From Candidatus Gastranaerophilales bacterium (GTDB taxonomy: Bacteria; Cyanobacteriota; Vampirovibrionia; Gastranaerophilales; Gastranaerophilaceae), in the NCBI GenBank assembly GCA_944325945.1, contig CALVBW010000009.1:1-64000 (forward strand): 64,000 nt of DNA, given 5' to 3'. A model generated the notes under the pieces. That model was not told the origin of the DNA. It did not search any database and was given only the letters and a program-made list of their open reading frames with translations. Of this stretch, positions 831 to 13,391 are shown one piece after another; positions within the stretch are counted from its first letter, which is position 1; every line of letters starts with the position of its first letter. The position numbers and the translations under genes were made by a program.

Positions 831-1373
831 ATGAATGTTGTAGAACCTATCAGAAAGAAAAAAGATCTTGAAAAAATTGAAAGTATTTTAAAAGAACAAA
901 GTTTGCGTGATTTATTGATTTTTACCGTCGGAATTAATTGCGGTTTAAGAATTTCAGATATATTAAATCTGAACGTAGGAGATGTTAGTAATAAAGATTA
1001 TATTAGTATTGTTGAAAAAAAGACCGGTAAATATAAAAGATTCCCGATTAATTCAAAGTTAAAACCTATGTTTGAAAAATTTACTCAGGGGCGAAATCCT
1101 GAAGAGCCGCTATTTTTGTCAATATTCCATAACAGAATGGAGAGGACGCAATGTTACAGAATAGTGAAAAATGCCTGCCAAAAAGCAGGTATTAATTATA
1201 AAACCGGTACTCATACTCTTCGAAAAACTTTTGGTTATCATCATTATCAGAAGTTCAAGGATGTTGCTGTGTTACAGAAAATTTTTAATCATTATTCGCC
1301 TTATGTTACTCTTCAATATATAGGGATAAATCAAGATATTATTGATGCAAGTTATAATAATTTTGTTTTATAA
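831..1373 (+). CDS. Small tyrosine recombinase (FimB/integrase-like), intact active site
   Basis: DNA invertase/integrase of the tyrosine recombinase family, 180 aa, containing only the catalytic domain (as in FimB/FimE) and no N-terminal core-binding domain. All catalytic positions are visible: Arg I in CGLRISDIL, Lys in the EKKTGKYKR hairpin, HxxR in HTLRKTF, His III in FNHYS and nucleophile Tyr in LQYIG. The start at 831 is chosen because of GGAG at 821-824; the open frame continues upstream to 648, but that part looks noncoding. It lies 18 bp before the left inverted repeat of a switch-like segment, which suggests that this is the enzyme that inverts it. Confidence 0.85.
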   Translation: MNVVEPIRKKKDLEKIESILKEQSLRDLLIFTVGINCGLRISDILNLNVGDVSNKDYISIVEKKTGKYKRFPINSKLKPMFEKFTQGRNPEEPLFLSIFHNRMERTQCYRIVKNACQKAGINYKTGTHTLRKTFGYHHYQKFKDVAVLQKIFNHYSPYVTLQYIGINQDIIDASYNNFVL

Positions 1374-1391: not shown

Positions 1392-1414
1392 ACATAATTG
1401 TACTTATGTTGAAT
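1392..1414 (+). repeat. Left 23-bp inverted repeat (recombination site)
   Basis: Perfect inverted copy of 1518-1540. Each repeat is itself a tyrosine-recombinase-like core: arms ACATAA and TTATGT flank a 6-bp centre (TTGTAC here, GTACAA in the partner). The oppositely oriented centres predict inversion rather than deletion. Confidence 0.85.
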
Positions 1415-1517
1415 CTTTTGGATAATCAGGTATCTGGCTTAATTTTAACATAAATATAATTTTTTGTTTATAGTGATTTTTAATATTAAGTTTTATAAAT
1501 GTTAGTCTATATCATTA

Positions 1518-1540
1518 ATTCAACATAAGTACAATTATGT
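1518..1540 (-). repeat. Right 23-bp inverted repeat (recombination site)
   Basis: Exact reverse complement of 1392-1414 with crossover centre GTACAA. The ATG at 1537 of the following open frame lies inside this repeat, so it would be retained after inversion. Confidence 0.85.
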
Positions 1541-2121: not shown

Positions 2122-3396
2122 ATGAATAGAGATATTGCTGTAAAAGAGTATAAGCTGTTTTTTGTCCCTGTTTTTAAAATAAAGGATTTTTTAAAGCTGC
2201 AAAAGATCTATTTGTTTGGCGTACCGGTTGCCGAAATTTGTAATTCTTCGGATTACAAAAGAAAAAAGATTAAAATTTGTGGAATTAGTATTACACGTAA
2301 GACAAAAGATTGGCTTAAAAAAGCTAATGAGGAAAATTTAAGACTTAATGAAGTTAATTTAGGTTATCAAGTTCCTGCAGGCGGAAAGAGTATTTTATAC
2401 GTTGCCTCAAATTATGTTGATTTTGGCGGTATAGAGACAAGAATTTTTCAGTATGCAAACCAGCTGCAGGCGTTGGGATGGAATGTTTATATTTTGAGCG
2501 AAAATAATGTGAATAAGAAGCTTAATGAATTTGTTAATTTTAATTTGATTTTTGACGGCGATAATTTGGATAAATGTTTAAATGAAATTATTGACAGATA
2601 TAAAATTGATGTTGTTGAATTTCAGTTTAAACATCCAAAGATATTGAAGAATTTGGATATAGCGAGATTAAAAACAAAAGCAAGAGTCGGATGTGTAATT
2701 CATAATCTCGGGATAAAAGATATAAATTCCATAAATAAGTTTGACTATAAGATTATGGTCAGCAGGTATATGTATGAGAATTATTATATAGGGATTAAAG
2801 ATGCTGTTGTAATCCAAAATTGTATTAATCCGGATACGAATTTACCTGTATGGCAATATAAAAATCAGGAAACGGCACTTATGATATCCAGAATTAATAT
2901 GGATAAGATAAAATCTATTGAATGTTTTATAAAGTATTGCCGGAAGAATGGTTATGATTTCAAAATAGCAGGTGAAGAGCCGGACGGATACAATTTAAAA
3001 AATGAATTAATTACAAAATATAATTTATCGGAGGAACATTTTATAGGTCCTGTCAAAACGGTTGAATATTTAAGTGAGCATATGAACGAAATTTTGTTTG
3101 TAGGCGGGGTAGGGCTTGTAATCCTGGAGGCGGCATACCTGAATTATCCGTGTCTGGTTTGTTCTGATTACAGGAGTGAAAATTATTCATTTGTCACAAA
3201 TTCCAATGCGGAGTTGTTTGACAATTTTACGATAAGGAAAGAGTCGTTGGTATCTCAACAGAAGAAAAAAGAAAGTTATTTGGATTTAAGCCGGATTGAA
3301 GAGTATGAATTGCGGAATTATATCTCCCAAAACCGGAATTTGAAAACAAATGTTGGAAAATATATAGAAGTTATCAGGGGTGGTTATGCTGGATAA
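2122..3396 (+). CDS. Glycosyltransferase, GT4-like
   Basis: Predicted cytoplasmic glycosyltransferase for a surface glycan, 424 aa. Residues 90-110 form a typical GT-B N-terminal start (ILYVASNYVDFGGIETRIFQYANQL, with the conserved Gly-Gly before the acceptor helix). The C-terminal half has the donor-domain pattern (MISRINMDKIKSIE, then VGGVGLVILEAAYLNYPCLV, equivalent to the E-x7-E region). The first 60 residues carry two short strands, KIYLFGVPV and KIKICGISI, resembling the GIKI tag found throughout this operon. First enzyme gene of the operon; its 3' end overlaps the next gene. Confidence 0.75.
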   Translation: MNRDIAVKEYKLFFVPVFKIKDFLKLQKIYLFGVPVAEICNSSDYKRKKIKICGISITRKTKDWLKKANEENLRLNEVNLGYQVPAGGKSILYVASNYVDFGGIETRIFQYANQLQALGWNVYILSENNVNKKLNEFVNFNLIFDGDNLDKCLNEIIDRYKIDVVEFQFKHPKILKNLDIARLKTKARVGCVIHNLGIKDINSINKFDYKIMVSRYMYENYYIGIKDAVVIQNCINPDTNLPVWQYKNQETALMISRINMDKIKSIECFIKYCRKNGYDFKIAGEEPDGYNLKNELITKYNLSEEHFIGPVKTVEYLSEHMNEILFVGGVGLVILEAAYLNYPCLVCSDYRSENYSFVTNSNAELFDNFTIRKESLVSQQKKKESYLDLSRIEEYELRNYISQNRNLKTNVGKYIEVIRGGYAG

Positions 3397-4432
3397 ATTA
3401 TTTTCGATAAAAGAAGCAGGTTTATATTATGAAATTAAATTTTTAGGGATAAAAATAAAATTTAAAAGTCTAAAACTTGCATATAAACAAATAAAAGAAT
3501 TAAAAAAGCGCCAATTATCTTTGAGGAGCAGTGAATTATTCTGGCTTGGAGAAGAAAAATATTCAATTAACGAAAGAATATGGTATTTATCACAAGAGTT
3601 TTATGAAACCGTTGGATATTATCCGAATATTAAAAATCCAAAGAGTTTTAATGAAAAATTGCACTGGTTAAAATTAAATTATTATAATCCTGCGGAAAGT
3701 GTTTGTATAGATAAATATTCAGCAAAAATTTATATTAATAAAATTCTCGGGGAAGGTCATACAGTACCTTTATTGGGTGTATATACAGATGTTAATGATA
3801 TTGATTTTAAATCTTTGCCGGAAAAATTTGTAATTAAATCAGTATTTGACGGCGGCGGTTTGGGAATGCGTGTTGTTGAAAACAACAATAAGCTTGATAT
3901 AGATAAATTAAAATACGATTTAAACAATATGATGCAAAAGTGGCATAGTTTGTATTATAGATTTTTATCAAGAGGTTATAAAAACATAGAGCCTCGGCTT
4001 ATTATAGAGGAATATTTACCTATTCGTGAGGGTAAAGCAATTGAGTATAAAATGTTTTGCTTTAACGGGGAAATGAAATTTTGTTTAATAGAGTGTGATT
4101 ATTTCGGCAAACATCCGAAAAGAGCGGTTTATGATGCTAAATTTAACGAAATGCCGTTTTCTATAGGCAATATAAAAAGAACTACTATTAAGCAAAAACC
4201 TGCAACATACGATAAGATGGTTGAATGGGCAGAAATATTATCAAAAGATTTTTTGCATGTAAGAGTTGATTTTTATGATGTAAACGGCAAAATTTATGTT
4301 GGCGAGATGTCATTTAGTTCGGCATCAGGATTTGGTATTTTTCATCCGAGGGAATGGGATTACAAGATAGGCGAATGGCTTGATCTGGACAGATTGCCAG
4401 AGGAATATATAACTAAAAGAAAGGGCGGGTAA
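3386..4432 (+). CDS. TupA-like ATP-grasp protein, copy 1
   Basis: Member of the ATPgrasp_TupA family (named after the Bacillus teichuronopeptide protein), thought to ligate amino acids or acidic groups onto cell-surface polymers using ATP. Conserved family features are the NPKSFNEKLHWLK segment near residue 70, DKYSAKIYI, the VIKSVFDGGG nucleotide loop, PRLIIEEYLP, EYKMFCFNGE and VRVDFYDVNGKIYVGEM near the C-terminus. ATG 3386 is chosen because AGGGG precedes it and the N-terminus MLDKLFSI then matches both paralogues; a GTG at 3380 is in frame. The N-terminus carries the tag FLGIKIKFK. Overlaps the preceding glycosyltransferase by 11 bp. Confidence 0.8.
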   Translation: MLDKLFSIKEAGLYYEIKFLGIKIKFKSLKLAYKQIKELKKRQLSLRSSELFWLGEEKYSINERIWYLSQEFYETVGYYPNIKNPKSFNEKLHWLKLNYYNPAESVCIDKYSAKIYINKILGEGHTVPLLGVYTDVNDIDFKSLPEKFVIKSVFDGGGLGMRVVENNNKLDIDKLKYDLNNMMQKWHSLYYRFLSRGYKNIEPRLIIEEYLPIREGKAIEYKMFCFNGEMKFCLIECDYFGKHPKRAVYDAKFNEMPFSIGNIKRTTIKQKPATYDKMVEWAEILSKDFLHVRVDFYDVNGKIYVGEMSFSSASGFGIFHPREWDYKIGEWLDLDRLPEEYITKRKGG

Positions 4433-5491
4433 ATGTTAGATAAATTGTTTTCAATAAAAAATGAAAAAAGTCACAAGATAGTCCGGATGCTCGGGATTAA
4501 ATTTAAATTTTTGAGCAAAAAATTATTATACAAACAGTTAAAAAGAATTCCTATTTACGGCGAATTTTCTATGCTGAATTTGTATCTTATGGATAAATGT
4601 AATGCCTTAACCGTCGATACTAAAAGAAGAATTTTGACACAGAAATTTTATGAAGCTACAGGAAAATTTCCTGATTTTAAAAATCCTAAGAGCTTAAATG
4701 AAAAATTAAACTGGCTAAAAATATATTACAATGATCCGTTAGAAAAACGCTGTGTGGATAAGTGTGAATTTAAAAAATATATAGAGGAAAAATTAGGTTC
4801 TGAATATGTTATACCAACAATAGGGGTTTATGAAAATATTGAAGATATAGATTTTGACAAGCTGCCCGCAAGTTTTGTTATGAAATCAACAATCTGGGGC
4901 AGCGGTACGGGTGTTGAAGTCATAAAAGATAAAAAAAGAATTAACTGGGATTATTTAAGATACAGGTTTACCAGATTTTTACAAAGTTGGAGAACTGTCT
5001 ATTATGCGACGCTTCCGTCAACTTATGAAGGTTTAAAGCCACGGATTATAATTGAAGAATATATGCCAATCAGGGAAGGCAAGGCATTAGAATATAAAAT
5101 GTTTTGTTTTCACGGAGAAGTGAAATTTTGTCTGGTGGAATGTGATTATTTTGGTATAAGACCTAAAAGAGCATTTTATGATAAAGATTTTAACGAAATG
5201 CCGTTTAAAATAGGAACGATGCCCAAAACAACATTACCTGAAAAACCTGCTACTTATGATAAAATGGTTAGTCTTGCAGAAGAACTTTCAAAACCATTCC
5301 CGTTTGTCCGTGTAGATTTTTATGATATTAACGGGAAAATTTATATTGGCGAATTTACGTTTACATCAGGCGGCGGTTTCAGTATATTTACACCGGATGA
5401 ATGGGGTAATAAGATTGGTGAATGGCTGGATTTGAATAAATTAAATCCCGAATATGTGATTAAAGAGAAGGGAGAATTTTATGCTGGATAA
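4433..5491 (+). CDS. TupA-like ATP-grasp protein, copy 2
   Basis: Second of three tandem TupA-type ATP-grasp paralogues, 352 aa, abutting copy 1 (its ATG directly follows the TAA). It shows the same order of motifs: FKNPKSLNEKLNWLK, DKCEFKKYI, FVMKSTIWGSGTG, PRIIIEEYMPIREGKALEYK, KFCLVECDYFG and VRVDFYDINGKIYIGEF. It is closest to copy 1 in its C-terminal half (shared PIREGKA.EYKMFCF and ECDYFG). N-terminal tag MLGIKFKF. Different acceptor or amino-acid specificity from its neighbours is likely but cannot be read from sequence. Confidence 0.8.
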   Translation: MLDKLFSIKNEKSHKIVRMLGIKFKFLSKKLLYKQLKRIPIYGEFSMLNLYLMDKCNALTVDTKRRILTQKFYEATGKFPDFKNPKSLNEKLNWLKIYYNDPLEKRCVDKCEFKKYIEEKLGSEYVIPTIGVYENIEDIDFDKLPASFVMKSTIWGSGTGVEVIKDKKRINWDYLRYRFTRFLQSWRTVYYATLPSTYEGLKPRIIIEEYMPIREGKALEYKMFCFHGEVKFCLVECDYFGIRPKRAFYDKDFNEMPFKIGTMPKTTLPEKPATYDKMVSLAEELSKPFPFVRVDFYDINGKIYIGEFTFTSGGGFSIFTPDEWGNKIGEWLDLNKLNPEYVIKEKGEFYAG

Positions 5492-6569
5492 ATTATTTAA
5501 AATTGAAAAATACAGATATCATTACAAGGTTACTATTTTAGGTATAAAAATTTCTGTAAAAAGTCTTAAATTAAAAATAGAAAAGTTGGAAAAAGATATT
5601 CAGGATTTGGCTCTTGCATCTAAATGGGTAACAAGAGGGAGGTTGTTATTTTATAACAATGCGGATCGTTGGACAACAGAAGAAAAGAAATGGTATTTGC
5701 AGCAGGAATGCTATATAAGATTAGGTTATTATCCGAATTTGCGTAATCCTAAATCTTTTAATGAAAAAATGAACTGGATGAAGTTTAATTATTTTGATCC
5801 GCATCAGGCTATTTGTGTTGATAAATATGAGTTCAAAAAATATATAACAGATAAACTCGGTGCAGAATATGTAATCCCTGTAATAGCCGTTTATGACAGT
5901 GTCGATGATATTAATCTTGATGAGCTTCCTGACAAATTTGTAATTAAAACTACAAATGGTTATGGCGGATTGGCTATTAAAGTTGTAAAAGATAAGAAAA
6001 AGTTTAATTTGGATAAATTTAAATATGAATTTAGTCCTCTTTTGATGGAATGGAAAAATTTGTATTACTATTCTCTTGAAAGAGATTATTTAGAAATTAA
6101 GCCAAGAATTATCATAGAAGAATATAAAGAAGAAGTTGAGGGGCAGTTATACGATTATAAATTTTTCTGTTTTCACGGAGAACCTAAGTTTGTATATGTA
6201 GCAATTGATCATTTTCCCGGAGTTAAATCAAAAATTTCGCTTTTTGATCTTGATTGGAATAAATTACCAGTCGAATATGACGGACATCCGCAAATCCCGG
6301 GGAAATTTAAAAAACCTAAAAATTATGACAAAATGCTTGAATTGAGCAGAGTTCTTGCAAAAGATTTTCCGCTTGTACGTGTGGATTTTTATGAAGTCGG
6401 CGACAGAATTTATGTAGGAGAGCTTACTTTTACATCCGGCGGAGCGTTTAGCAGATTTGTTCCGCGTGAGTGGGATTACAAACTCGGGGAATATCTTGAT
6501 TTAGATAAGCTGCCTAAACAATATGTAAATGTTTTGCCTGAATTTATGCCTAAGGAGAATAGAAAATGA
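5481..6569 (+). CDS. TupA-like ATP-grasp protein, copy 3
   Basis: Third tandem TupA-type ATP-grasp paralogue, 362 aa, starting 11 bp before copy 2 ends, with GGGAG upstream. It is the most divergent copy: the PIREGKALEYK segment is replaced by KEEVEGQLYDYK and ECDYFG by AIDHFPG, so substrate contacts probably differ. It keeps NPKSFNEKMNWMK, VIKTTNGYGG, PRIIIEEY and VRVDFYEVGDRIYVGEL. N-terminal tag ILGIKISVK. Its stop overlaps the ATG of the next gene. Confidence 0.8.
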   Translation: MLDKLFKIEKYRYHYKVTILGIKISVKSLKLKIEKLEKDIQDLALASKWVTRGRLLFYNNADRWTTEEKKWYLQQECYIRLGYYPNLRNPKSFNEKMNWMKFNYFDPHQAICVDKYEFKKYITDKLGAEYVIPVIAVYDSVDDINLDELPDKFVIKTTNGYGGLAIKVVKDKKKFNLDKFKYEFSPLLMEWKNLYYYSLERDYLEIKPRIIIEEYKEEVEGQLYDYKFFCFHGEPKFVYVAIDHFPGVKSKISLFDLDWNKLPVEYDGHPQIPGKFKKPKNYDKMLELSRVLAKDFPLVRVDFYEVGDRIYVGELTFTSGGAFSRFVPREWDYKLGEYLDLDKLPKQYVNVLPEFMPKENRK

Positions 6570-7786
6570 TTACTTTAGAACAACCATATTTAGAAAATAA
6601 CGGTGATTTTACAAGGCTCGTCTGTGATATTCAAGAAGATGAGAAGAAGAAACAGGTATTTTTTGAAGTAGAAAATAAGTGGGCACAATATTTATGTTAT
6701 GAAAGAGCGGATGCTTTTTTAATCGGCATTTTAAATTATGCAATGCGGTTTAAGCATGATATTGTTTGTAAAGCTCCTGTAACTGAGGAACTTTTATACA
6801 ATATTAATGAATATCTTGTCCCTTCGCTTGCAATTAATGATTCAAAATTATACCCTATTAAAATAACAGCACCTGTCGAAGTTGAACCAATGCCTAATGC
6901 CGGCGGAGTCGGAACAGGTGTTTCATGCGGTGTGGATTCTTTCCATTGTATTCATAATCATTACAATTCACAGTATAAAGGTCAAAATCTTACTCATCTG
7001 TGTATTAATTCAGTCGGCTCTTTCCACAGAGGTTATACAAAATACGGCATAGACAGAGCCCGTGATGATGTCAGAAGAAGAGCAAAAGCTGTTGCGGACG
7101 ATTTAGGGCTTCCTCTTATAATATCAAATTCAAATATTAAACAAGAATTTGACATATATTTTGAGCACAGTCATACTTATTATTCTATGTTTGCAGTTTA
7201 TTGTATGCAAAAACTCTGGAAGGTATATTATTATGCAAGTACATATACTTTCGCATATTTTAATCTGAAAAACAGCTCTAAAAAAGACACAGCATATTAT
7301 GAACTGTTGTCGCTTCAGTGTTTTAGTACGCATAATCTGCGTTTGTATTCTGAAGGCTCAACAAAAGACAGACTTGAAAAAACCCGGGCAATAGTAGATG
7401 ACAAGCTTGCTCAAAAATATTTGCACGTATGTTGTACAAAAGGTTACAACTGCGGTACATGTCTAAAATGCCGGAGAACACTTTTGACTCTGGATATTCT
7501 TGGCAAGTTAGATGATTTTCGTGAAAGCTTTGATGTAGATTATTATAAAGCTCACAGAAATGAATATCTTGATTGGCTTTATGAAAACGGCAGAACCGGC
7601 AACATAATGTTGAAACCTATCTATAATGCATTAAAAGATGAATTTAATTTCATGTTCAGGTTTAAATACAGTCTGGCACGCATTATGCATAAGATTTTTG
7701 AGATACAGGATTGCGGAACAAAAGTTAGAATAAGAATATTATTTATAAAAATATCATATAAGAGAAAAAATAAATGCAGAAACTAA
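6566..7786 (+). CDS. PP-loop ATPase-like protein of the glycan operon
   Basis: 406 aa. The segment GVGTGVSCGVDSFHCI (about residue 114) is a variant of the SGGxDS PP-loop of adenine-nucleotide alpha-hydrolases (QueC, GMP synthetase and N-type ATP pyrophosphatases). This suggests ATP-driven adenylation of a substrate. A C-terminal CCTKGYNCGTCLKC cluster could bind zinc. The extreme C-terminus carries a version of the operon tag (VRIRILFIKISYK). Preceded by AAGGAG; its ATGA start overlaps copy 3, and its end overlaps the transporter gene. Exact reaction unknown; acting with the TupA-type ligases on an amino-acylated or modified glycan is an inference from position. Confidence 0.6.
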   Translation: MITLEQPYLENNGDFTRLVCDIQEDEKKKQVFFEVENKWAQYLCYERADAFLIGILNYAMRFKHDIVCKAPVTEELLYNINEYLVPSLAINDSKLYPIKITAPVEVEPMPNAGGVGTGVSCGVDSFHCIHNHYNSQYKGQNLTHLCINSVGSFHRGYTKYGIDRARDDVRRRAKAVADDLGLPLIISNSNIKQEFDIYFEHSHTYYSMFAVYCMQKLWKVYYYASTYTFAYFNLKNSSKKDTAYYELLSLQCFSTHNLRLYSEGSTKDRLEKTRAIVDDKLAQKYLHVCCTKGYNCGTCLKCRRTLLTLDILGKLDDFRESFDVDYYKAHRNEYLDWLYENGRTGNIMLKPIYNALKDEFNFMFRFKYSLARIMHKIFEIQDCGTKVRIRILFIKISYKRKNKCRN

Positions 7787-9555
7787 TTGAACAAATTAAA
7801 CAAACTCAAGCGTATATAAATTATTCAAGGATTCTTCCTTACGTCAAACCATACTGGTTCAGGGCGCTTTTAGCAATAGGGATTTGTATTCCTATAGGGG
7901 CTTTGGATGCGATTATTGCATTGTCTTTAAAGCCTTATATGGATTTGGTAATGGTTGAAAAAAGCGTTCAATCTCCGTGGTATATACCATTTGGTATAGT
8001 TGCTTTTACAACTGTTCAAGGTTTGCTAAATTATACTGCAACGTATTTAAACACATGGGTCGGCGGAAAGATTACCAATGATTTGAAGATGGCGCTTTAT
8101 AAAAAGCTTTTGACCTTTGAACCGGATTATTTTAACCGGCGTAAATCCGGTGATATTGTTTTCAGGTTTAACACTGACGCGGATACGGCGTGTAACGGTT
8201 TGTTGGAAAATTTGAAAGTTTTTGTTTCAAGGTTATTTTCATCAATTTCATTAGTCGGAGTATTGTTTTATAATTCATGGCAGCTTGCTTTGATTGCGGT
8301 CTTAATCCTCGGCGGTGCGTTTTTACCGCTTGCAAATATAAGAAAACGCATTAAGGATGTTATGGACAAATCAGTTGCAGCCAGTTCAACTGCTATTACA
8401 GCACTTAACGAAACTTATTCGGGCAATAGAACAATTACATCTTATAATCTGGTGGATTATCAGGAAAATAAATACGCCAATATTTTGCGGAATATTTTTA
8501 CTCTAAAGATAAAATTAGTTCAAAGAACAAACTGGCTTTCACCTATGATGCATATAATCGTATCTATAGGCATCGGGCTTGCTATAGGTTACGGGTCGCA
8601 TTTAATTCTGTCGGGGCAGATTACAAGCGGGAATTTTGTTTCATTTATTACTGCGCTTATAATGCTTTATACACCTATAAAAAATCTCGGTAATAATTTT
8701 AATGCCGTACAGTATTCTTTTATTGCAATAGAGCGTATATTTAATATTCTGGACAGAAAGCCGCTTATAACAAATGTGGCAAATGCTGTTGAATTCAAGG
8801 ATTTGAAAGACAGTATAAAATTTGAAAATTTGAGTTTTGCCTATGTTAAAGGCAAGGATGTTTTAAAAAATATTAATCTTGAGGTAAAAAAAGGTGAAAC
8901 CCTTGCAATTGTCGGAAATTCAGGAGGCGGTAAAACTACGCTCGTAAATCTTCTTGCAAGATTTTATAATTTTGCAAGAGGGCAGATTTTAATTGATAAT
9001 TTGAATATTAAAAATTATAGTCTGGAATCTTTGAGGTCAAAAATTGCCGTTGTATTTCAGGATAATTTTTTGTTTTCCGGAACTATAAGAGAAAATATTT
9101 TACTCGGAAAATTTGATGCTACGGAAGAAGAATTGCATGCTGCAATAAAAAACGCATGTCTTGAAGATTTTATAGGTGAATTGGAAAAAGGTATTGATAC
9201 TCCTATCGGAGAACGCGGGGTATTACTTTCCGGCGGGCAAAAACAAAGAGTCGCAATAGCACGTGCATTTATAAAAAATGCCCCGATTGTAATATTGGAT
9301 GAGGCAACATCCGCTCTTGATAATAAGTCTGAGGCAATTGTTCAAAAAGCAATTGATAATTTGATGCAGGATAAAACCGTATTTGTAATAGCACATAGAT
9401 TGTCAACAATTCAAAATGCAGATAAAATTGCTGTTATAAATGAAGGTGAACTGGTTGAACTCGGTTCTCATGACGAACTTATGGCTATAGAAAACGGACA
9501 ATACAGAGCATTATATGAAATGCAGTTTCGAAAACAGTTGATTAACAATAAATAA
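7774..9555 (+). CDS. ABC exporter, MsbA-like (fused membrane and ATPase domains)
   Basis: Inner-membrane half-transporter of 593 aa that works as a homodimer and flips a lipid-linked glycan or lipid. About six membrane segments fill residues 25-310. The nucleotide-binding domain follows, with Walker A GNSGGGKTT (about 388), Q-loop VFQDNFLF, signature LSGGQKQRVAIARAF, Walker B IVILDEATSALD and H-loop VIAHRLST. Its position inside a glycan operon, overlapping the preceding gene by 13 bp, suggests export of the product made by the neighbouring enzymes. Confidence 0.85.
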   Translation: MQKLIEQIKQTQAYINYSRILPYVKPYWFRALLAIGICIPIGALDAIIALSLKPYMDLVMVEKSVQSPWYIPFGIVAFTTVQGLLNYTATYLNTWVGGKITNDLKMALYKKLLTFEPDYFNRRKSGDIVFRFNTDADTACNGLLENLKVFVSRLFSSISLVGVLFYNSWQLALIAVLILGGAFLPLANIRKRIKDVMDKSVAASSTAITALNETYSGNRTITSYNLVDYQENKYANILRNIFTLKIKLVQRTNWLSPMMHIIVSIGIGLAIGYGSHLILSGQITSGNFVSFITALIMLYTPIKNLGNNFNAVQYSFIAIERIFNILDRKPLITNVANAVEFKDLKDSIKFENLSFAYVKGKDVLKNINLEVKKGETLAIVGNSGGGKTTLVNLLARFYNFARGQILIDNLNIKNYSLESLRSKIAVVFQDNFLFSGTIRENILLGKFDATEEELHAAIKNACLEDFIGELEKGIDTPIGERGVLLSGGQKQRVAIARAFIKNAPIVILDEATSALDNKSEAIVQKAIDNLMQDKTVFVIAHRLSTIQNADKIAVINEGELVELGSHDELMAIENGQYRALYEMQFRKQLINNK

Positions 9556-9577
9556 AGTTTGTGTTATTTTGTTTTGT

Positions 9578-10060
9578 ATGAAAGAGTGGTTAAAAGCTGT
9601 CATTATATTACCGTTTAATGTACTGGTTGTGATACCGGTATTGATATTATATTTTTGTGACTACAAATATGTTTATAACAGTTTGCTATTGATAATTTTA
9701 GGAATTATATTTGTAGTTATTGGTTTTATATTAGCAGTAACTACAATGCTGCTATTTAATAATATCGGCAAAGGAACTGCCGCTCCGTGGTCACCGCCTA
9801 AAGTGCTGGTGGTGGAAGGTCCGTATAAATTTGTCAGAAATCCTATGATAACAGCTGTTTTGGCAATTTTATCGGGTGAAAGTATGATATTAAATTCGCC
9901 GGAAATTTTTTGCTGGTTCGTGGTATTCTTCTTGATAAATTCTATTTATTTCCCTCTTTTTGAAGAAAGGCAGTTAAAAAATCGGTTTGGACAGGAATAT
10001 TTGGAATATATGAATCGTGTGCCGCGCTGGATACCAAAATTTGATTTTTGGAAAAAATAG
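9578..10060 (+). CDS. Membrane methyltransferase, ICMT/PEMT family
   Basis: Small integral-membrane methyltransferase of 160 aa, resembling isoprenylcysteine carboxyl and phospholipid methyltransferases. Hydrophobic segments occupy residues 5-65 and 95-120. The C-terminal signature is present: VEGPYKFVRNPMI, then FEERQLKNRFGQEYLEYMNRVPRWIP, which holds the S-adenosylmethionine-binding Arg-Asn-Pro and Glu-Glu residues. ATG 9578 is used in preference to a TTG at 9569. It follows the exporter by 22 bp. Substrate unknown; methylation of a lipid or lipid-linked glycan would fit the context. Confidence 0.7.
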   Translation: MKEWLKAVIILPFNVLVVIPVLILYFCDYKYVYNSLLLIILGIIFVVIGFILAVTTMLLFNNIGKGTAAPWSPPKVLVVEGPYKFVRNPMITAVLAILSGESMILNSPEIFCWFVVFFLINSIYFPLFEERQLKNRFGQEYLEYMNRVPRWIPKFDFWKK

Positions 10061-10200
10061 TCTTTTAAGTAGTCGAAGCCTTTAAGTTTTTTTAGAATGA
10101 ATTTATAAAACTTATAAAATTATATGCATAAAACAAAATTCATGCTAAAATTTTTGTGGAAGATTTTTATTGGAATTAAGTTATTTTATAGGTCTTTATT

Positions 10201-11148
10201 TTGAAAATTTGTACAACAAACTTTAGAAAAATATTTAGTTTTTTAAGAAAATTATTTTTGTTTATTGATCTTGATTCGCATTATATAATAAAAGTTTTCG
10301 GCATTCAGGTAACATTAAAACACAGGTGCAGATTTAAATATAAAAAAGCTGTCAATTATGGTATAAGTAATGAAACAAGGATACCACGGGTAATTATTTC
10401 GTTGACCAGTCATCCTGCAAGGATAAATATGGTTCATTTGACAATCAATACCTTATTACAGCAGACAATGAAGCCTGATTTAGTTATTTTGTGGCTGGCA
10501 AAAGAGCAGTTTCCAAAAGGAATTGATGAATTGCCCGGGGAGCTTCTTGATTTGCAAAAGCTGGGGTTATCCATAAGGTGGTGTGAGGATTTAAAGTCTT
10601 ATAAAAAGCTTATTCCGGCGTTGAAAGAATTCCCTGAAGATATTATTGTGACGGTGGATGATGATTTGTATTATGAAGAAGATATGCTGGAAAGCCTTTA
10701 TCAATCTTATCTTTCGCATCCTGATGAAATTCATGTTCATAGAATTGCAAAAGTTGTTAAGATTAAAGACAAACTTTCAGCTTTGCAGAGTAGAAAATTT
10801 TATTATGATAATTTATCAGGTTCAAGTTATTGTTATCAATTGATGGGCGGCTCAGGCTGTTTGTATCCGCCGCATTCACTTTATAAAGATGTTTTTGATA
10901 TAGCTAAAATCAAGTCTCTTGCTCCGACGCAGGATGATATTTATTTTTGGGCAATGGCGGTGTTGAACGGTACAAAAGTTCGTATTGTCAAAGGGTTTAA
11001 ATCACAGCTTTATTATGTTGAAAATACACAACAACACGGGCTTTGCAAAATAAATAATAATACGGGTTACGGGATGTCTCCGGGGCAGGTATATGAAAAT
11101 ATCTGCAAAACATATCCTGAAATATTAAGCAGATGTGAGGAAATATGA
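10201..11148 (+). CDS. Glycosyltransferase, GT-A fold with DDD motif
   Basis: 315 aa. The N-terminal tag VFGIQVTLK is followed by the start of a GT-A domain (VIISLTSHPARINMVHLTINTLLQQTMKPDLVILWLA) and the metal-binding triplet in VTVDDDLYYEED near residue 155. The acceptor-side segment GGSGCLYPP and the acidic APTQDDIYFW follow. The start is a TTG with no clear ribosome site. A 140-bp AT-rich gap separates it from the methyltransferase gene, so an internal promoter is possible. Related proteins occur in capsule and LPS clusters; linkage and sugar cannot be predicted. Confidence 0.65.
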   Translation: MKICTTNFRKIFSFLRKLFLFIDLDSHYIIKVFGIQVTLKHRCRFKYKKAVNYGISNETRIPRVIISLTSHPARINMVHLTINTLLQQTMKPDLVILWLAKEQFPKGIDELPGELLDLQKLGLSIRWCEDLKSYKKLIPALKEFPEDIIVTVDDDLYYEEDMLESLYQSYLSHPDEIHVHRIAKVVKIKDKLSALQSRKFYYDNLSGSSYCYQLMGGSGCLYPPHSLYKDVFDIAKIKSLAPTQDDIYFWAMAVLNGTKVRIVKGFKSQLYYVENTQQHGLCKINNNTGYGMSPGQVYENICKTYPEILSRCEEI

Positions 11149-13391
11149 GAAATAAGCTGAATAAATCAAAGTGCAGCGGATGCTCTGCGTGTTATAATGC
11201 TTGTCCTGCAGGGGCTATTTCAATGCAGGAAGATAATGAAGGATTTTTGTATCCTGTGATTGATGATTCAAAGTGTACTGATTGCGGGTTATGTGAAAAA
11301 GTTTGTTTTATTAATCATTCTAAGCATTTTAATGATAAAAAACCGGATTATGCATATGCAATTCAGGCTCAAGATGATATTTGTCTGATGAGTTCATCCG
11401 GAGGATTATTTACATTGATAGCCGAAAATATTCTCAAAAAAGGCGGATATGTATGCGGTGCTGCCTGGAGTGATGATTTCAGAAGTGTTCGACATATTTT
11501 GATATCTTCTGTTGAAGAATTAAATAAACTTCGTTTATCAAAGTATGTCCAAAGCGATTGTAATACGGTTTTTAGGGAAATTAAGCAAATACTTAACAAA
11601 GATATCCCGGTGTTTTTTACGGGAACTCCATGTCAGGTGGAAGGTTTAAAAAATTATTTGGGAAAAGATTATTCAAATCTTTTAACGGCTGATATTTTGT
11701 GTCATTCTGTTCCGTCTCCTAAAGTCTGGCGCAAATATCTTGATTCGGTCTGCAAAGAACGTAAATTACAGTTTGTGAATTTTCGCAGTAAAATGAAAAG
11801 CTGGCAGGATTCTCAAATAAAGTTTGATTTCGATGACGGTTCAAGCATTGTAGAATCTAAAAAAGAGAATTTATTTTTCAAAAGTTTTATAAAGAATATG
11901 ATTTCCAGACCAAGTTGTGAAACTTGTTCTTTTACTTGTTTATACAGAGTTTCTGACCTTACACTCGGTGATTTTTGGAAGATTTATAAATTTGATAAAA
12001 ATTTAAACGGACCAAAAGGCACTTCTTTATGTCTTTGTAATACTGTTAAGGGTGAAGAAGCTTTAGCTGAGATAGAAAAACAAATAAAAGTTATTAAAAA
12101 AGTCCCGATTAAGTATGCAATAAGAGGTAATGCGGTTTTAGCTCATCCTTTAAAATTTCATCTGTTACGCGATATGTTTTTTGCAAAGATTGATAATATG
12201 GATATTTTAAAAAATATAAAAGATACATTTTCCGGTAAATATAACGGCGTAATAGCGAATTTTTGGGATTCAAATTACAATTATGGCGCTACATTAACAG
12301 CGTATGCATTGCAGCAGTTTTTTAAAGAAAGAGGATATGATTTCAGACTTTTAAATTTGTATCCTCAGGTTGCAATGAAGGATAAAAATTCTTTTGTCAG
12401 AAAGTTTGCGGATAAATATCTTTATTTAACTGAGCCGGTTAAAAATAAGAAAGAGTTATCAAAATTAAATTCTTTTGCGGATACATTTGTTGTTGGTTCG
12501 GATCAGGTGTTTAAAGATCACTGTATGAGAAAATATTTTGATTCTTTTCTTTTGCCGTATACTGATTTTTCAAAACGCAGAATAGCTTTTTCAGCAAGTT
12601 TTGGTAAGGATAATTTTATTGCATCGGATGAAGATAAGTATATTTTATCTAAATATCTAAAACGTTTTGATGCTATTTCAGTCAGAGAACATTCAGGGAT
12701 TGATATTTGCAGGGAGGATTTTGATGTTGAGGCTGAACGTATTATGGATCCTGTATTCCTTGCGGACAGGGAATGTTTTTTGAAATTGGTAGATTTTGAC
12801 AGTTTGCGATATAAAGATAAAATAGTTTGTCTGTTGCTCGATATGTCTGAAACTTTAAGAAAATCTATTGAAGAATTGAGCCGCAAATTGTCAGTCGAGG
12901 TTGTTTATATAGATCGTAAAAAATTTTCAATAGAAGAATTTTTGACGGCAATATATACCTGCAGATATTTTGTGACTGATTCTTTCCATGGAACATGTTT
13001 TGCAATATTATTCCATAAAAATTTTGTTACCGTAACTAATGAATCACGGGGAATGGCAAGATTTGAGTCACTTATCAGAATATTTCCGATTGCTGAAAAT
13101 TTTGTAAATTCTCCAGAATTGATTAATTCTGTTGAATTTACTGACCAAAATTGGGATGAAATTGAAAAAATAATTAATTCAGAAAAGGAAAAAGCTGATA
13201 TTTGGATTAAGAAAGTTTTTGAGACGCCGCGTCCTTTGAAGATGTTTGAAAATGAATTTGATTTAAATAAATATTCAAATGTACGGAAAAAACTTTTTAG
13301 ATCATCAAAATCTTTATTTTCAATTACAGGGGATCGTGTAAGAATTACAATCTCCATTTTCGGTATAAAAATAAGTATAAAAAGAAAGTAA
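11145..13391 (+). CDS. FrhB-like iron-sulfur protein fused to polysaccharide pyruvyl transferase
   Basis: 748 aa, two enzymes in one chain. Residues 1-55 form a two-cluster ferredoxin (CSGCSACYNAC and CTDCGLCEKVC). Residues 75-330 match the F420-hydrogenase/dehydrogenase beta-subunit family (FTGTPCQVEGL, then a Cys pair in SCETCSFTC). From about 365 (GVIANFWDSNYNYGATLTAYAL) the chain is a polysaccharide pyruvyl transferase, with VVGSDQVF, FSASFGK, SVREHSG, MDPVFL and TDSFHGTCFA. The final residues are the operon tag FGIKISIK. Family knowledge: the second half adds pyruvate ketals from phosphoenolpyruvate. The redox half probably modifies the same glycan. The ATGA start overlaps the preceding gene. 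Confidence 0.8.
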   Translation: MRNKLNKSKCSGCSACYNACPAGAISMQEDNEGFLYPVIDDSKCTDCGLCEKVCFINHSKHFNDKKPDYAYAIQAQDDICLMSSSGGLFTLIAENILKKGGYVCGAAWSDDFRSVRHILISSVEELNKLRLSKYVQSDCNTVFREIKQILNKDIPVFFTGTPCQVEGLKNYLGKDYSNLLTADILCHSVPSPKVWRKYLDSVCKERKLQFVNFRSKMKSWQDSQIKFDFDDGSSIVESKKENLFFKSFIKNMISRPSCETCSFTCLYRVSDLTLGDFWKIYKFDKNLNGPKGTSLCLCNTVKGEEALAEIEKQIKVIKKVPIKYAIRGNAVLAHPLKFHLLRDMFFAKIDNMDILKNIKDTFSGKYNGVIANFWDSNYNYGATLTAYALQQFFKERGYDFRLLNLYPQVAMKDKNSFVRKFADKYLYLTEPVKNKKELSKLNSFADTFVVGSDQVFKDHCMRKYFDSFLLPYTDFSKRRIAFSASFGKDNFIASDEDKYILSKYLKRFDAISVREHSGIDICREDFDVEAERIMDPVFLADRECFLKLVDFDSLRYKDKIVCLLLDMSETLRKSIEELSRKLSVEVVYIDRKKFSIEEFLTAIYTCRYFVTDSFHGTCFAILFHKNFVTVTNESRGMARFESLIRIFPIAENFVNSPELINSVEFTDQNWDEIEKIINSEKEKADIWIKKVFETPRPLKMFENEFDLNKYSNVRKKLFRSSKSLFSITGDRVRITISIFGIKISIKRK

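Follow-up and report, generated by a model that had tools for sequence, protein, structure and literature searches.

Does the segment at positions 1392-1540, which lies between a small tyrosine recombinase gene and a surface-glycan operon, act as an invertible promoter of this operon? It belongs to a window (the whole stretch of DNA analysed here) that spans 64 kb from the start of a 71.8-kb contig, from a Candidatus Gastranaerophilales genome of 1.63 Mb. Gastranaerophilales are non-photosynthetic relatives of the cyanobacteria found in animal guts; they are almost uncultured and, to our knowledge, nothing is known of their surface biology. We consider it very likely that the segment is an invertible promoter, which the recombinase inverts to turn the operon ON or OFF and from which a catalytically dead recombinase paralogue is transcribed first. 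The features of the locus are collected in Table 1.

Table 1. Features of the putative switch and of the glycan block behind it (positions in the window)
Feature	Position	Strand	Remarks
Active small tyrosine recombinase, putative invertase, 180 aa, catalytic domain only	831-1373	+	PF00589, E 3e-26
Left recombination site / inverted repeat	1392-1414	+	Palindromic core ACATAA-TTGTAC-TTATGT at 1392-1409
Putative invertible 103-bp spacer with predicted promoter	1415-1517		Both orientations seen among homologous spacers
Predicted promoter TAAACA-17-TAAAAT with TG extension	1442-1470	-	Consensus scan and conserved spacer motif; faces the recombinase
Right recombination site / inverted repeat	1518-1540	-	Palindromic core at 1523-1540
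Companion pseudo-recombinase, 176 aa	1585-2115	+	PF00589, E 4e-15; likely start GTG 1585; reading frame open from 1537
Glycosyltransferase, GT4/GT1-like	2122-3396	+	Weak matches; separated from the companion by 6 bp
Three TupA-like ATP-grasp genes	3380-4432, 4433-5491, 5481-6569	+	PF14305; frames adjoin or overlap
Operon protein of unknown family	6566-7786	+	No Pfam or NCBIfam match
ABC transporter (ABC_membrane and ABC_tran), likely lipid-linked glycan flippase	7774-9555	+	
PEMT-type methyltransferase	9569-10060	+	
Weak GT2-like protein	10201-11148	+	Below the Pfam cut-off
FrhB/FdhB and polysaccharide pyruvyltransferase fusion, last of the glycan block	11145-13391	+	PF04230, E 3e-31

The two arms of the segment are exact 23-bp inverted repeats spaced by 103 bp, as the initial annotation had stated, and they form the longest exact inverted repeat with a spacer of 30-250 bp in the 64 kb. 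Elsewhere in the window the exact inverted repeats at such spacing did not exceed 13 bp, and in 20 Markov-simulated 64-kb sequences of the same dinucleotide make-up the longest was 16 bp. The 23-bp repeats are thus far beyond chance, and the pair is single-copy in the genome. Both arms hold ACATAA-6 bp-TTATGT with the centres TTGTAC and GTACAA, i.e. inverted, which bears out their description as miniature core sites with inverted crossover centres. Each arm is a near-palindrome composed of a half-site, a 6-bp centre and a second half-site. The sequence of the left site is TCTACATAA TTGTAC TTATGTTGA, and that of the right site, on the other strand, is GCAACATAA TTGTAC TTATGTTGA; the centre and the inner half-sites are the same, while the outer half-sites are slightly different. 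At the edge of the segment, positions 1536-1556 adjoin and slightly overlap the right site and are an exact 21-bp inverted copy of positions 4189-4209, which lie inside the first ATP-grasp gene and encode KQKPATY. This similarity ends at both edges, and the copy may be the scar of an ectopic recombination event.

The recombinase gene upstream of the segment starts at ATG 831, preceded by a GGAG ribosome-binding site at 821-824. Its product carries the full R-K-H-R-H-Y set, which is common to 92 aligned recombinase homologues apart from a stray cell or two of the alignment; the presence of an intact small tyrosine recombinase beside the repeats was correctly annotated. The best sequence and fold matches are the XerA, XerH and XerD recombinases. 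The protein aligns to XerA from model position 100, the N-terminal core-binding domain being absent, and the XerC, XerD and XerA models taken together gave 89, 68 and 65 bits against cut-offs of 220, 330 and 335 (89 against 220 being the XerA result), all below the level of a full-length equivalog. A separate full-length Xer is encoded elsewhere in the same genome (G000:C30). With 180 aa, the protein has the catalytic-domain-only build of the FimB/FimE family (about 200 aa), and the FimB/FimE-type DNA invertase models NF007371 and NF007370 gave 46.6 and 30.0 bits against cut-offs of 222 and 221. The term FimS-like, used in the initial annotation, therefore suits the mode of working of the switch and not its family, since these models remained far below their cut-offs. 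Just upstream of the recombinase gene, positions 461-720 form a GC-richer dispersed repeat with partial copies on at least 4 other contigs and an internal inverted copy at 609-647.

Close homologues were found in Candidatus Gastranaerophilales genomes. At a loose threshold, which includes ordinary Xer proteins, homologues of the active recombinase were present in 57 of 59 relatives. With E <1e-20, they were present in 101 genomes of a phylum-wide sample of 292, and 99 of the 101 belong to the window's own family, and close homologues also occur in same-order genomes of other families. An inverted-repeat pair lay at most 520 bp after the stop codon in 53 of the 83 homologous recombinase genes having at least 200 bp of downstream sequence, in comparison with 1/78 in the control region 600-1120 bp downstream and 1/83 in shuffled sequences. 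A larger set yielded a pair in 69 of 119 homologues, the other 50 showing no clear pair downstream. Dozens of loci whose spacers are unrelated have the repeats in the same place with respect to the recombinase gene. The spacers mostly measure 103-153 bp, and the window spacer, with 103 bp, is among the shorter ones observed. In the other 15 genomes of the genus, the exact window spacer gave short weak matches and no close relative.

The 39 homologous sites analysed share the anatomy of a 9-bp half-site, a 6-bp centre and a 9-bp half-site. The arms vary between loci, and the two centres of one locus are the same in 36 of the 39 pairs, representing 25 different hexamers, against a mean of 1.9 and a maximum of 7 matches upon permuted re-pairing, part of this agreement being built in by a repeat search that preselects similar arms. 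The agreement is lower at adjacent positions of the half-sites, two of which reach 62-67%, so the centre appears to be specially constrained, and a centre matching within the locus is what strand exchange requires. Some loci are more elaborate: L043, L047, L011, L006, L014 and L045 present three sites about 160 bp apart, two direct and one inverted, and in L040 a distance of 1.3 kb separates two distinct cassettes. Such loci may have more than two states.

Six pairs or groups of homologous loci have the same flanks and the segment in opposite orientation in different genomes. In L079 and L080, from two genomes, the recombinase genes (540/540), the upstream (1000/1000) and the downstream (1000/1000) sequences are identical, and the spacer is identical at 153/153 positions and inverted. 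L086 likewise carries the segment in the orientation opposite to that of L074, L075 and L076, and L082 and L083 differ from each other in the same way. The three other pairs, L147/L017, L084/L118 and L008/L141, are nearer to the window's type than the preceding ones and also show opposite orientations, with recombinase DNA identities of 96.9%, 89.8% and 86.7%, respectively; in L084/L118 the arrangement is that of the window itself, a companion gene and an operon with a sugar transferase being present. When contig ends within 6 kb were considered, 6 of 19 downstream ends fell at most 250 bp from the gene, compared to 1 of 20 upstream ends, and the contig ended at most 164 bp downstream in 13 of 132 active genes. 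Contig breaks at the cassette are expected if the assemblies meet both orientations, as in mixed populations.

Considering the promoter, a simple sigma-70 scan found promoters in the segment no more commonly than in shuffles, and the promoter claim is therefore based on a motif shared across loci. Expectation-maximisation on the spacers gave a single strong motif, TTTGTGnTAnnAT, corresponding to an extended -10 element, with a log-likelihood of 116 compared to 39-49 in Markov shuffles. The motif occupies a fixed position, about 30 bp from the spacer end where the promoter exits, and in the 33 scored spacers it faces the recombinase 19 times and the operon 14 times. The more distant L080 and L086 present a TTGACA-17-TATATT promoter toward the downstream genes, which is reversed in L079 and L074-L076. 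No terminator-like site was found in the segment. In the window, the -10 region, at 1442-1447 on the minus strand, matches TTTGTGnTAnnAT and is as far from the end where the promoter exits as in the other spacers. As the predicted promoter faces the recombinase, the glycan operon is probably OFF in the assembled orientation. The annotation of promoter-like DNA in the 103 bp is supported by the conserved extended -10 motif and not by the single-sequence scan, which did not rise above shuffles, while the predicted on/off switching of the surface glycan gained support from the six inverted homologous loci together with the two-way conserved motif. These comparisons of sequences support the view that the homologous cassettes act as invertible promoters. 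For the window locus itself we infer both inversion and promoter activity in the segment, and the switch at 1392-1540 is probably real and functional.

Behind the segment, a same-strand glycan block extends to 13391 with short or overlapping junctions, the sole break being a 140-bp gap at 10060-10201. The glycan operon that had been annotated after the repeats is present, except that its first gene encodes a catalytically degenerate recombinase homologue and not a glycan protein. This companion is an unexpected conserved partner gene, absent from the initial annotation. In other loci the first gene can also be of a kind other than glycan, namely an EcoRI-type adenine methyltransferase (L082), a von Willebrand A protein (L074) or a small LuxR-type regulator (L055).

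The homology of the companion to its relatives starts at GTG 1585. In its sequence the catalytic R is replaced by D, the beta-hairpin K region is deleted, and the two H and the Y are replaced by S, Q and F, respectively. It keeps only the second R and the fold, and thereby falls outside the active tyrosine recombinases (R, K, H/K, R, H/W, Y). The 29 distinct companion proteins form one clade with a support of 1.0 in a tree rooted with the genome's own full-length Xer. Across this family the first R is lost in 26/29 and the first H in 29/29, the second H is Gln in 24 and the Y is replaced by F in 19/29, while the second Arg is kept in all. The reading frames are open and conserved across genera, with 52-77% identity in many. 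An inverted-repeat cassette lies directly upstream of 21 of the 29 companion genes, and for seven of these 21 there is no active recombinase within reach of the sequence examined. The distance to the next gene is usually no more than about 40 bp, and the product of that gene is a glycosyltransferase, a nucleotidyltransferase, a sugar transferase, a UDP-galactopyranose mutase or a similar protein, while a few others have no Pfam match. Up to 11 recombinase-family genes of such kind were counted in one genome.

The AlphaFold2 model of the window companion (pLDDT 87.8) matches the structures of XerA, XerH, Cre and the Tn1549 integrase, and therefore its DNA-binding fold is likely retained. The distances of active and companion proteins are correlated with a Mantel r of 0.45, a value confounded by common descent, which is compatible with active-companion co-evolution and to which we give little weight.

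We propose the following mechanism. The recombinase would cut both palindromic sites at their identical 6-bp centres and invert the DNA between them, so that the extended -10 promoter would either drive the downstream operon (ON) or point back at the recombinase (OFF). In the ON state, the dead recombinase paralogue would be transcribed first, followed by the surface-glycan operon. The paralogue has probably kept its binding to sites of this kind, either by itself or together with the active enzyme, and would feed back on switching or on transcription, e.g. by stabilising the ON state or adjusting transcription. The companion would in this manner be a regulator that is made when the switch is ON and whose target is either the sites or the active enzyme, and a disabled copy of the enzyme as first controlled gene suggests a built-in control. 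A more specific version, in which the companion is a dedicated invertase-derived regulator, made only in the ON state, that binds the sites or pairs with the active enzyme and either locks the switch ON or shuts other glycan switches, is plausible but falls a little short of probable.

Part of these observations could be accommodated otherwise. As each arm is close to palindromic by itself and the companion represents a DNA-binding fold without catalytic activity, the repeats could be operators for a repressor or activator with the recombinase fold, either the companion or the recombinase, acting without recombination. We regard this as very improbable, since the neighbouring recombinase is catalytically intact, homologous segments are inverted between otherwise matching loci, and the centres differ from one locus to another while being the same on both sides of a locus, a match that is necessary for recombination but not for an operator. 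The resemblance of the sites to dif (CATAA-6 bp-TTATGTT) and the dispersed repeat just upstream could instead designate the repeats as the ends of a small transposable element or as Xer-site remnants of a mobile element, with the second integrase gene as a decaying passenger. The pair is nevertheless single-copy, dozens of loci have it in the same position by the recombinase gene around unrelated spacers, and the open, cross-genus conserved frames of the companions do not speak of decay; this origin of the repeats is hardly credible.

A remaining doubt concerns the promoter role of the segment. The promoter consensus alone is weak, and the OFF orientation would send antisense transcription into the 3' end of the recombinase gene. 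The spacer motif, however, has the extended -10 form at a fixed place, the TTGACA-17-TATATT promoter of L080/L086 is turned round in L079/L074-L076, and the segment lacks a terminator-like site, so that a reading without the promoter role appears unlikely to a high degree. The invertible promoter therefore remains the preferred reading of the segment.

The switch shares several traits with fimS/FimB-FimE of E. coli type 1 fimbriae, i.e. a short promoter segment between inverted repeats, an adjacent small catalytic-domain tyrosine recombinase, a surface operon downstream and tandem recombinase genes at the locus. However, fimS has 314 bp and its FimB and FimE are both upstream and both active (PMC9096935), whereas here the repeats have 23 bp and the spacer 103 bp, the active enzyme is upstream, and the second gene, which codes for a catalytically dead protein, lies on the downstream side under the control of the switch. 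FimS is an analogue, and not a relative, of the window switch. The Mpi enzyme of B. fragilis is a serine enzyme acting on many promoters, while the recombinase here is an adjacent tyrosine enzyme. The capsule promoters of Bacteroides are alike in placing an invertible promoter before a polysaccharide operon with a regulator as first gene. In that system UpxY acts in antitermination, UpxZ represses other capsule operons (PMC7315117), and UpxY genes can be regulated by invertons (PMC11892184); here, in contrast, the first gene is a pseudo-recombinase and not NusG-like. Inverted repeats of 10-40 bp, an embedded promoter, a neighbouring invertase and an enrichment of surface genes also characterise the invertons of the PhaseFinder survey, in which invertase genes near invertons are generally outside the inverton's promoter control, with one possible exception (PMC11892184). 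In the loci described here, a recombinase-family gene is regularly under the switch, and inactive. XerA/XerH/XerD with dif provide the best sequence and fold matches and similar half-sites with a 6-bp centre, but the enzyme here has no N-terminal core-binding domain, each cassette has its own centre sequence, and the scores are below the equivalog cut-offs.

The literature searched on phase variation, invertons and invertible elements in Gastranaerophilales/Melainabacteria, with the 2019 Science inverton survey (doi 10.1126/science.aau5238) outside its scope, contained nothing relevant, in agreement with the earlier remark that no described case was known in this lineage. The data point to a lineage-wide, recombinase-linked promoter inversion before glycan operons and a few methyltransferase or other operons, and phase variation of the cell surface would then be a main strategy in Gastranaerophilales too. 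With the dead recombinase as the first gene under control, there is a case, open to testing, in which the switching enzyme itself has supplied a feedback element, a solution different from the UpxY/UpxZ regulators of Bacteroides. Should the companion be a dedicated regulator, the locus would represent a phase-variation circuit with pseudo-recombinase feedback.

Two further sequences were noted in the genome. ACATAATGTATATTATCT, at G000:C9:67364-67381 (L127) with the centre TGTATA, lies about 66 kb away from the switch and is a candidate for the chromosomal dif site. ACATAAAAACTATTATCT recurs in the G000 contigs C1, C5, C6, C8, C9 (34186), C18 and C31, and is possibly a conserved promoter or a small repeat.
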